Part shown: positions 48,285 through 51,448 of the stretch, piece after piece
How positions within the stretch are numbered: position 1 is the first letter of the stretch
How the letters are laid out: each line of letters starts with the position of its first letter
Notes under the pieces: model-generated
Seen by the model: the letters and a program-made list of their open reading frames with translations, nothing else
Told to the model about the DNA's origin: nothing
Databases searched by the model: none
Origin: Phycisphaeraceae bacterium
Lineage (GTDB): Bacteria; Planctomycetota; Phycisphaerae; Phycisphaerales; Phycisphaeraceae
Direction of reading: 5' to 3'
Length of the DNA: 64,000 nucleotides
Assembly (NCBI GenBank): GCA_028284155.1
Contig: JANQSF010000054.1
Coordinates: forward strand, 1 to 64,000
Program-made: the position numbers and the translations under genes

Positions 48285-49343
48285 TTGGCCGCCACCCGCT
48301 TGATCATCTGCTGTGTCTTACTGGTCGCCCCGGCCGCGGCCGGTCAATCCGCCAACAACACGACACACGTCGAAACCGAACCGATCAGGACCGACCTCGG
48401 CCCGGGCGGCAAGATCGAGACGATGGCGATGGACGCGCAGGGCCGACTCCTGCTGGGTATCTCGTGGTCAGCCGAACCAGCGCGCGACGGTCAACCCAAA
48501 CGCCAACCCAAACGCGGCGGTCGCCCGAGCTTTCAGGACGCCGACCCGGCCCAGTTCGCCGACCCGAAAGGCAAACGTCACTACGCACTCAAGGTTGTCG
48601 ATACCAAGACGCGCAAGGTCGTCGCCACCTGGCCGATGAAATACCTGCCGCCGAAGATGATCCACGGCAACGCCGACGGTAGCGTCTACGTCGGCGGCAA
48701 GGGCAAGCTCGCCCTGTTTGACAAGACCGGTAAGCCCGTCAAGAAACTCGACCTCGAACCGATCCTCGGTTACGCCAACGCGTATGTCAGCGGCATGACC
48801 GCCAGCGACAAGCACGTCTTCCTCGCGTTCGGCAAGGGCTGGAGCCTGCGCTCGACCGAGGACATCTATCGCTTTGATAGAGACCTGTCGAAGCCGAAAA
48901 AGATCATCTCGAAGCAGTTCGGCTGCTGCGCGCACCTCGACCTCGAGGTGGAAGGCGACGTCCTGCTCATCGCGGAAAACTCGCGCCACCGCGTCAACCG
49001 CTACACGTTCGACGGCGAGCTGCTGCAACGCTGGGGCAAACGCGACCGCACGGGCGTCGAGGGGTTCACGGCCTGCTGTAACCCGGTCAACTTCGACTTC
49101 GGCCCCGACGGCCTGCTCTACACCGCCGAGTCCGGCGTCGGACGGATCAAGAAGTACGCCGGCGACGGGACATTCCTCGGCGTCGTGGGCTACGTCGATA
49201 CGACCAAGTTCGATCGCGGCAGCCGACTCGCATCGATGTCGTGCTACATCCCGATCGAGGTGTCGCGTGACGGCAAGACGATGTATGTGATGGATGTCCG
49301 TGCTAACTTCATCCGCGTGCTGTCCCCGAAGCCTCTGAAGTGA
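48285..49343 (+). CDS. secreted NHL-type beta-propeller with CCNP motif
   Basis: A 352-residue exported propeller. No ATG fits; a TTG at 48285 has GGGAG seven bases upstream and opens on a signal peptide (RLIICCVLLVAPAAAGQ). NHL-like blades repeat VLLIAENSRHRVNRYTFDGE and LLYTAESGVGRIKKY. Three conspicuous cysteine motifs stand out: QFGCCAHLDLE, FTACCNPVNF and the single Cys in SMSCYIP. The same CCNP sequence recurs in the product of 51611-52567, so the two are related. Paired cysteines in a propeller suggest metal binding or disulfides. The function is unknown. It is followed nine bases later by the next gene, so an operon is likely. Confidence 0.78.
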   Translation: MAATRLIICCVLLVAPAAAGQSANNTTHVETEPIRTDLGPGGKIETMAMDAQGRLLLGISWSAEPARDGQPKRQPKRGGRPSFQDADPAQFADPKGKRHYALKVVDTKTRKVVATWPMKYLPPKMIHGNADGSVYVGGKGKLALFDKTGKPVKKLDLEPILGYANAYVSGMTASDKHVFLAFGKGWSLRSTEDIYRFDRDLSKPKKIISKQFGCCAHLDLEVEGDVLLIAENSRHRVNRYTFDGELLQRWGKRDRTGVEGFTACCNPVNFDFGPDGLLYTAESGVGRIKKYAGDGTFLGVVGYVDTTKFDRGSRLASMSCYIPIEVSRDGKTMYVMDVRANFIRVLSPKPLK

Positions 49344-49352
49344 GTACACCGC

Positions 49353-51437
49353 GTGGCTGATTCAATCGGATTGAAACGCAGAGTGCGTAGAGGAACGCAG
49401 AGAGGGAGACCATTCGTAGTCTTATTCTCTGCGTTCCTCTACGCACTCTGCGTTTCACTTCCGACCGGTCGCGCGGACGAACCGCAGCCGCGGACCCCTC
49501 GTCCACTCAACATCATCGTCATGGACCCGCTCGCCGCGCCGCTTGCCTGCGCGTGCGTCGCGGGCGTCGGGCAACGCGACTATCCTGCTTTGGCGGCATA
49601 CCTCGAACAACGCCTCAACCGCAAGGTCAAGCTCACCTTCGACGAAAGTCTCGACCTCGCCCTGCCGCGCGCGGGCAAGAACGTGGACCTGGTCATCGGC
49701 AAGCGTTCGATCGTCCTGTTCGACGCCAAACGAAAGGGCTTGCAGGTCCGCGCGATCGCCGCGCTGACCGATCGGGCCGGCCGAACCGGCGTGCGCGGCG
49801 CGGTGATGGTGCGCAACAGCGACCCCGCTCAATCGCTGCGCGATTTGGCGGGCCGAACGCTCGTGCTCGCGCCGGGCGAAGACGACGAGTCGCACGCGGC
49901 CGTCAAGGCCCTGCTCGCGCGGTTCGACCTGACGGACAAGGTCAAACTGCGAACAGGCGGTGCGATCGATTCCGGCCCGGTAGCGGTCTTTGACGACGAA
50001 GCCGACGCGGCCGCGACCAGCGATTTCATGCCGCCGTTACTCGAAGGCTGCGGCAAGGTTGATCCTGGCTCGCTGCGCGTGATCGCGCACACCGACACCC
50101 GGCCGTTCGTGCAGGTGTTCGCGACGGCCCGCGTCTCGAAGCACGAGCAGGCCAAACTCAACGAAGCCCTCTGCGGCGTCGCGCGTGACGTGAGATTGCT
50201 CCACAAGCTCGAATCGTTGCGCGGTTTCGTCCCAGTCCAACCCGACTGGCCGGACTGGCGTGGCCCGCAGCGCGACGGCCTGAGCAACAACGTCCCGCGG
50301 GCATTCCCGATAAACGTCAAGCGCCTCTGGACCGCGCAGGTCACCGGCCCTGCGATGGCCGGCGTCGCCGTGAGCGGCCGATACCTGGTCGCGCCGGACA
50401 AGTCGGCCGACCTCAAGTACGACATCTTCCGCTGCTTCGACGCGCACAGCGGCAAGCCGCTGTGGACGCTGCGCTACAAGGCTGACAAGGATGTCGACTA
50501 CACGAACGCGCCGCGCGCGTCGCCCGTGATCGCGGACGGCCTTGTCTACCTCCAAGGCGCTCTAGGCGACCTGCACTGCGTCGAGCTCGCGACAGGCAAG
50601 GTCGTTTGGAAGACGAACATAGTCACGGCGTTCGGCGGCAAGCTGTTGACCTGGGGCAGCAGCGCACCGCCGATGGTCGTCGGCGACCGGCTGATCACCA
50701 ACCCCGGCGCGCCGAAGGCGACGATGGCGGCGTTCAATCGCCACACTGGGAAACTCGCATGGCAGTCGTCCGGCCACGCGACGAGTTACGGCGCCTACAT
50801 GCTCGCCCAACCGTCGCCCGGCATGAATACTCGACGACAGGTCGTCGGATTCGACGTCAACGGTCTGAACGGTTGGGACGTGCATACGGGCAAGCACCTG
50901 TGGGTTGTGACTTCGCGTGATGTGGACTTCAACGTCTGCACGCCCGCCATCCTCGGCGACACCGTGCTGGCCGCGGGCGAAAACAACGGCACGCGGCTCT
51001 ATCAGTTTGATAGCAAAGGCATGCTGCAACCCAAGCCGATCGCCGTCAACGACGACATGGCACCCGACACGTGCTCGCCCGTCGTTTACAACGGCCGCGT
51101 GTTCGCCACGGCCTACGGCGAGCTGTTCTGCCTCGACCTGCGCAACGGGCTTAAGACCGTTTGGCGGCAAGAGGACGATCGTTTTCACGACCACTGCAAC
51201 ATCATCGCGGGCAACGGTCGACTGATGGTCTCGACGATGGGTGGCGAGTTGATCCTGATCGACGCGGACGCCGACACGTACCGTGAGGCCGGCAGTCTCA
51301 AGCCGTTTACGGCCAAAGGTGACGAGGACATTGAGACGATGTCGCACCCGGTGATCGTGGGCGATCGGCTGTATTGGCGGTCGAAACACGAATTGATTTG
51401 CCTTGGAATCGGTGGAACCACAGATGAGCACAGATAA
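49353..51437 (+). CDS. PhnD-like substrate-binding domain fused to PQQ-type propeller
   Basis: A 694-residue exported protein from a GTG at 49353. Residues about 50-290 resemble PhnD/phosphonate-type ABC binding proteins (IIVMDPLAAPLACACVAGVG, LRDLAGRTLVLAPGEDDESH, PGSLRVIAHTDTRPFVQVFA). From residue 297 a PQQ-type propeller begins with the planctomycete signature WPDWRGPQRDGLSNN. Its blades include YDIFRCFDAHSGKPLWTLR and FCLDLRNGLKTVWRQ. I know no standard family with this order. The signal peptide region (LKRRVRRGTQRGRPFVVLFS to SAFLYALCVS) is encoded entirely by a perfect 30-base palindrome, and the stop codon lies in another repeat arm. Ligand binding and scaffolding are the likely roles. 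Confidence 0.8.
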   Translation: MADSIGLKRRVRRGTQRGRPFVVLFSAFLYALCVSLPTGRADEPQPRTPRPLNIIVMDPLAAPLACACVAGVGQRDYPALAAYLEQRLNRKVKLTFDESLDLALPRAGKNVDLVIGKRSIVLFDAKRKGLQVRAIAALTDRAGRTGVRGAVMVRNSDPAQSLRDLAGRTLVLAPGEDDESHAAVKALLARFDLTDKVKLRTGGAIDSGPVAVFDDEADAAATSDFMPPLLEGCGKVDPGSLRVIAHTDTRPFVQVFATARVSKHEQAKLNEALCGVARDVRLLHKLESLRGFVPVQPDWPDWRGPQRDGLSNNVPRAFPINVKRLWTAQVTGPAMAGVAVSGRYLVAPDKSADLKYDIFRCFDAHSGKPLWTLRYKADKDVDYTNAPRASPVIADGLVYLQGALGDLHCVELATGKVVWKTNIVTAFGGKLLTWGSSAPPMVVGDRLITNPGAPKATMAAFNRHTGKLAWQSSGHATSYGAYMLAQPSPGMNTRRQVVGFDVNGLNGWDVHTGKHLWVVTSRDVDFNVCTPAILGDTVLAAGENNGTRLYQFDSKGMLQPKPIAVNDDMAPDTCSPVVYNGRVFATAYGELFCLDLRNGLKTVWRQEDDRFHDHCNIIAGNGRLMVSTMGGELILIDADADTYREAGSLKPFTAKGDEDIETMSHPVIVGDRLYWRSKHELICLGIGGTTDEHR
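49373..49456. repeat. perfect 30-base palindrome encoding a signal peptide
   Basis: Arms at 49373-49402 and 49427-49456 are perfect inverted copies built of CGCAGAG / CGTAGAGGAA words, with a 24-base spacer. On the plus strand the left arm encodes basic residues (KRRVRRGTQR) and the right arm the hydrophobic SAFLYALCVS. The minus strand can encode the same pair. Confidence 0.95.
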
Positions 51438-51448
51438 ACGCAGATTGA
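51416..51448. repeat. single tandem-word arm (CACAGATGAGCACAGATAAA)
   Basis: ACAGAT/CAGAT words run from 51416 to 51448. They encode the last residues (TTDEHR) of the preceding gene and contain its TAA stop (51435-51437). Very similar words recur in unrelated bacterial genomes as far as I recall. No inverted partner was found nearby. Confidence 0.8.

Follow-up and report, generated by a model that had tools for sequence, protein, structure and literature searches.

What is a perfect inverted repeat doing in the first codons of a conserved gene, and can such a repeat act as the gene's export signal? This question is raised by the window, a stretch of 64,000 nucleotides from a contig of a Phycisphaeraceae bacterium, in which a hairpin overlaps the start of an open reading frame (ORF) for a putatively exported protein.

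Results

The hairpin encodes the same pair of peptide segments on both strands

The earlier note on this DNA had described the element as a perfect palindrome. The inverted repeat is indeed perfect. It spans 49372-49457 (86 bases), and its arms are 100% complementary; however, they are 32 rather than 30 bases long, and a loop of 22 bases separates them. Taken at 39 bases, the arms still show 92% complementarity. The parts are as follows.

49372 to 49403, plus strand: 5' arm of 32 bases, with the 9-base units CGCAGAGTG, CGTAGAGGA and ACGCAGAG; perfect complement of 49426-49457
49404 to 49425, not stranded: loop; its plus strand codes for the GRPFVVLF portion of the leader
49426 to 49457, plus strand: 3' arm, the reverse complement of the 5' arm; codes for SAFLYALCVS

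The DNA fold of the hairpin reached -48.7 kcal/mol (z -14.0) and the RNA fold a z of -12.9, and in both cases none of 200 shuffled sequences folded as well. The hairpin is thus a real feature of the window. A 694-residue ORF opens with GTG at 49353, and the hairpin falls within its first codons, where it reads VADSIGLKRRVRRGTQRGRPFVVLFSAFLYALCVSLPTGRADEPQP. The translation of this plus-strand ORF (49353-51437) starts with VADSIGLKRRVRRGTQRGRPFVVLFSAFLYALCVSLPTGRA, the start codon being written as V, and continues with DEPQP. On the minus strand, an ORF at 49309-49506 includes KRRVRRGTQRIRLRMVSLSAFLYALCVS. As had been claimed, a basic segment (KRRVRRGTQR) is therefore followed by a hydrophobic one (SAFLYALCVS) on each strand. 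We scored such peptides by a rule of our own, which calls a frame signal-like if a net charge of at least +2 is followed by 12 residues with a mean Kyte-Doolittle hydropathy of at least 1.8. Both strands of the window hairpin satisfy this rule, which bears out, for this copy, the proposal that the orientation of the element does not matter. In the plus-strand leader, the net charge before the h-region is +6, and the h-region has a mean hydropathy of 2.48 over 12 residues. The sequence beside the window copy showed no clear target-site duplication, and the junctions in sister species are strongly diverged.

The hairpin probably provides the leader of the downstream gene

The gene that begins with the hairpin belongs to a conserved gene pair, and sequence of the same repeat family recurs at its other end.

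48573 to 49343, plus strand: conserved part of the upstream gene, which codes for an NHL-like propeller protein and is the partner in the conserved gene pair
49353 to 51437, plus strand: 694-residue ORF with hairpin-encoded leader, PhnD-like binding domain (PF12974) and PQQ-like propeller (PF13360)
49353 to 49475, plus strand: putative signal peptide, KRRVRRGTQRGRP / FVVLFSAFLYALCVSL / PTGRA, assigned by composition only
51416 to 51447, plus strand: single arm of the same repeat family, AACCACAGATGAGCACAGATAAACGCAGATTG, which encodes the last residues of the ORF and its stop

The leader may start at GTG 49353, TTG 49371 or GTG 49383. By composition it has the parts of a Sec signal peptide, namely a basic n-region (KRRVRRGTQRGR), a hydrophobic h-region (FVVLFSAFLYALCVSL) and small residues at -3 and -1 (G-R-A before D). 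The upstream gene stops 9 bases ahead of GTG 49353 and 28 bases ahead of the hairpin, and we found no alternative leader that fits between this stop and the mature domain. Past the hairpin, the first ATG occurs at 49521, and a start there would delete a conserved strand. Clear conservation among the orthologues sets in at RPLNIIVMDPL, 42 bases past the hairpin, and the plausible start codons of the PhnD-propeller ORF lie only within or just before the hairpin. Together, these positions make it probable, judging from sequence, that the PhnD-propeller protein is exported by means of a signal peptide whose start, n-region and h-region all come from the hairpin.

Two further genomes, G041 and G053, contain orthologues that keep the upstream neighbour, and the upstream gene described here matches these neighbours at 36% and 32%, respectively. 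The leaders of the two orthologues, MNVTSKLSCVVVLLGLIAFIGC (lipoprotein-like) in G041 and MAKHLLRGLGWWCLLICMSGWAESARA in G053, are related neither to the hairpin nor to one another; from a third orthologue, on the genome contig L030, no clean leader was recovered. The leader comparison called for in the earlier note thus favours replacement, and the hairpin-encoded leader probably took the place of a native one. At the same time, the idea that the insertion could create a secreted protein in one step goes too far: the relatives already carry export signals, and the original cleavage-site region has apparently been retained, with TGRA/DEPQP resembling the cleavage region SARA/ESQPQP of the G053 orthologue. 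The element would thus have substituted one leader for another rather than created export. At the C-terminus, the single arm adds a few residues and the stop relative to the orthologues, which lack such an extension. With the hairpin at its start and the arm at 51416-51447 at its end, the window gene has both ends made of repeat sequence.

The hairpin might instead be only an insertion in an operon gap that provides no working leader. The gene would then be leaderless, poorly translated or decaying, and its frame would be open merely because 9-base units are free of stops. The stem, with 32 bp and no mismatch, is very stable, and at a start codon it should hinder ribosomes and be a target for RNase III. 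Furthermore, nearly all other family hairpins that we examined lie outside genes, and the arms are open in many frames (32 of 72), which is unremarkable given that shuffled sequences yield 40%. Against this stand the remaining 640 and more codons, which are intact and conserved, the lack of any other start codon that would preserve the first conserved strand, and the occurrence of a basic n-region, a hydrophobic h-region and small cleavage-site residues in the correct order and length. We regard the absence of a working leader as rather unlikely, if the most serious of the alternatives. As the arms are perfect, the insertion is likely to be young, which suggests that there has been little time for selection.

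The hairpin belongs to a family with an intrinsic tendency to encode signal-like peptides

The earlier note had viewed the hairpin as an inserted element, and relatives elsewhere in the genome agree with this. The arms of the family are mostly built from 9-base units with the form C[AG]C[AC]GA[GT]NN, preceded by AACC or AAAC (e.g. CGCAGAGNN). Counted by pattern searches, the exact arm pattern has 24 matches in the source genome, a draft of 161 contigs, compared to none for a reversed-pattern control. Across 61 genomes it matched in 26, with up to 169 matches per genome, and the control gave 2 in total. Many family hairpins are present in the source genome, with loops that vary between about 20 and over 100 bases. 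That the window element is a member of this family can be stated with high confidence. Comparison with Rfam returned only weak microRNA-hairpin look-alikes far under the cut-off, and an Rfam identity was rejected.

Signal-like peptides, required here to be open to the end of the element, were encoded by 19 of 132 frames and by 12 of 22 distinct hairpins. Dinucleotide-based shuffles gave a mean of 1.2 such frames (maximum 5) and palindromic shuffles a mean of 1.4 (maximum 6); the rule is our own, and the 22 hairpins are related, so that they do not count as independent trials. The tendency to encode signal-like peptides is intrinsic to the hairpin family. Use as a leader is a different matter. 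The earlier note had proposed a search for other copies at gene starts: relatives turned out to be plentiful, but when the surroundings of 24 distinct hairpins were inspected, a convincing in-frame position at a gene start was seen for the window copy alone. Another hairpin, C64:6030 (L033 1504-1614, G000:C64), is in frame within a large ORF, where two FabA-like domains flank it.

Inverted periodic arms bracket GxxExxY and IVP genes

The source genome contains two genes of the GxxExxY family (PF13366/TIGR04256, PD-(D/E)XK nuclease-like), and both are flanked by inverted arms of the 9-base design (ACCACGGATGGCACGGATGGGCACGGATG and GAGGTTTAACGCAATGGCGCGGAGGCGCGAAGACGCGAAG with their complements). 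Inverted arms were present at 26 of 27 usable GxxExxY loci from the source genome and its order-mates. In these 27 loci, the complementarity of upstream and downstream arms had a median score of 50, whereas mismatched locus pairs reached 23 and control genes 16-28. When loci from the phylum were added (51 in total), none of 2000 permutations attained the observed complementarity sum. An automatic call of the arm period was split among 8, 9 and 10 bases: the units are mostly of 9 bases and the 8- and 10-base spacings are common, so that "9-base" describes the main form only. In several elements, the start of the GxxExxY ORF runs through an arm (e.g. VNHRGTETQRDTLTEK and MRRQTAEDAESAEA), which suggests that members of the family often have an open frame across the arm. 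At L258 and L248, two sets of arms occur per side of the GxxExxY element, an arrangement that would result from insertion of one hairpin into or beside another.

Elements with a gene for the IVP four-helix bundle (PF05635) have the same layout, with arm units of 7 or 8 bases. These IVP genes outside rRNA (L066, L067, L110-L138) were likewise found with inverted arms of 7- or 8-base period, in operon gaps and in the sense of the operon. No GxxExxY relatives were found in phages or viral contigs, and the two found on plasmids both lack arms. A search of the PDB yielded no sequence relative of GxxExxY. In the open-access literature, we found no description of GxxExxY elements and no arm sequences, and GxxExxY itself is scarcely mentioned.

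The elements occupy short gaps in core operons

By our own reading of the translated flanks rather than by annotation, the elements occupy the short gaps groES-groEL, groEL-dnaJ, atpH-atpA and pntA-pntB, as well as positions after lysS and upstream of gyrB. We searched sister species with the flanks of each element, leaving out the element itself. The gap was empty in some (groEL-dnaJ in G097 and G037; atpH-atpA in G070 and G073) and was occupied in others by a short hairpin, about 80-125 bases long (atpH-atpA in G067; after lysS in G019), while further sister species had a gene-bearing element of 420-600 bases in the corresponding gap. At L177 and L204, the short hairpin adjoins what appears to be left of a GxxExxY element's last arm. 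The groES-groEL, groEL-dnaJ and atpH-atpA gaps have been hit repeatedly, in different species and by different elements, with either GxxExxY or IVP (L069, L071, L073, L074, L077, L118, L119, L133, L066, L132). At loci with co-directional flanks, the cargo gene pointed in the operon sense in 36 of 38 GxxExxY and 16 of 16 IVP cases; strands were assigned automatically here, and single assignments may be wrong. Because its relatives fill operon gaps that are empty or hairpin-bearing in sister species, the window hairpin, which fits this pattern, can be regarded as a short form that sits in such a gap and carries no gene.

In genus g9, the gap after lysS (L191, L193, L194) contains short hairpins with another periodic unit, of the AAAGCAGG / GGAAAGC type. 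This differing unit points to further arm families without known cargo.

Location between co-directional genes, the strong RNA fold and hairpins in the corresponding gaps of other species would also suit an element kept for RNA processing or stability, which uncouples the two cistrons and for which leader coding is incidental or secondary. Its 3' arm is not followed by a T run and is hence no intrinsic terminator, the orthologous gene pairs in G041 and G053 lack the hairpin, and the sequence families and their cargo favour mobility over conserved regulation. We consider a retained RNA element improbable. Chance, or an artefact of metagenome assembly such as a fold-back chimera, is very improbable even in a draft of 161 contigs and given that library preparation can create perfect inverted repeats, as the arms are built from family units common to many other loci and genomes, and hairpins of this kind occur in orthologous operon gaps of other assemblies.

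Discussion

A probably mobile hairpin as putative leader of an exported protein

Taken together, we favour the following explanation. A family of hairpins with periodic arms of about 9-base units, whose gene-bearing relatives carry GxxExxY and lodge in operon gaps, would have placed a copy between the two genes of a conserved pair. The second of these genes would have lost its native leader, presumably through this insertion. Since the 9-base unit equals three codons and is stop-free in several frames, the element may then have been read in frame, the 5' arm giving Arg/Lys repeats and the loop and 3' arm a stretch of Phe, Leu, Val, Ala and Cys. Translation is probably coupled to the upstream gene that ends 9 bases before GTG 49353. 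Because the cargo is biased to the sense strand, movement most likely proceeds via an RNA-level element resembling an intervening sequence. As a whole, the account of a gene-less family member that inserted in a gene pair and now provides a leader appears to us a reasonably likely one. It would be a concrete case in which a functional leader was apparently replaced by mobile DNA, and for a simple reason: the 9-base unit is Arg-rich on one arm and rich in Leu, Cys and Val on the other.

More tentatively, the elements may form a widespread undescribed class of periodic-arm hairpins between co-transcribed genes (with GxxExxY at about 9 bases and with IVP at 7-8 bases), which act as RNA hairpins in the manner of rRNA intervening sequences and shed gene-less hairpins. 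Due to its three-codon period, the 9-base kind would carry, on either strand, peptides that could serve directly as signal or membrane-anchor sequences, and could thus be a recurrent source of new leaders. We think this possible, somewhat short of an even chance. What is new here are the hairpin family, which is apparently undescribed, its nuclease-bearing relatives and the operon-gap habit.

Comparison with known systems

A precedent is the enterobacterial small mobile repeat RU-2 in Yersinia YPO1552 (Delihas 2007, PMC2759123). The window element belongs to a different sequence family and phylum. RU-2 is not described as a near-perfect hairpin of periodic arms coding for a peptide on both strands, and no nuclease-bearing relatives or operon-gap habit are reported for it in PMC2759123.

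The Rickettsia palindromic elements (RPEs) are short palindromic repeats in frame within protein-coding genes (Ogata 2000, reviewed in PMC10969869), to which the window copy, in frame at a gene start, and C64:6030, in frame inside a gene, can be likened. However, RPEs often lie in genes and have a conserved peptide per family, whereas the present hairpins are mostly intergenic and both peptide and frame vary from copy to copy.

Like REP/REPIN sequences with their RAYT transposases (PMC3116915, PMC3733652), the hairpins are dispersed short palindromes that are mostly extragenic and probably moved in trans. In contrast to these, they have longer arms of 9-base units, and the bracketed gene is GxxExxY instead of a Y1 transposase. 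The foot tag GTAG/CGTC is absent from the window hairpin, whose foot reads ATTGAAACGC / GCGTTTCACT. Y1_Tnp has three matches in the genome, none of them bracketed by arms and one with a single arm about 1 kb away; a RAYT/REP origin was rejected on these grounds. In its 86 bases, its 32-base inverted arms, its many genomic relatives and the lack of a transposase gene, the window hairpin corresponds to a MITE. It also shares its ends with a gene-bearing element, as arms of the same design bracket the GxxExxY genes, which makes GxxExxY a candidate mobiliser. The window hairpin is probably mobile DNA.

The gene-bearing relatives have a parallel in the intervening sequences of 23S rRNA. In Coxiella, these have a terminal stem and one small ORF within about 430 nt and are excised by RNase III; their function and origin are called unclear, and a transposition remnant or mobile element is among the hypotheses (PMC4990558). 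The gene-bearing relatives are similar in length (about 420-600 bases), in their terminal inverted repeats of about 25-40 bases and in having one small ORF, and some carry the IVP (S23) four-helix-bundle gene itself. They differ in their periodic arms, in GxxExxY as alternative cargo and in their position between protein genes of operons rather than within 23S rRNA. A stem that encloses an IVP ORF is found in the IVP relatives, and the window copy has no ORF inside. GxxExxY and the IVP four-helix bundle known from rRNA intervening sequences, both of them orphan gene families, are thus connected by one element design, and through this link to elements in the gaps of core operons, the origin and movement of intervening-sequence-like elements become directly testable.
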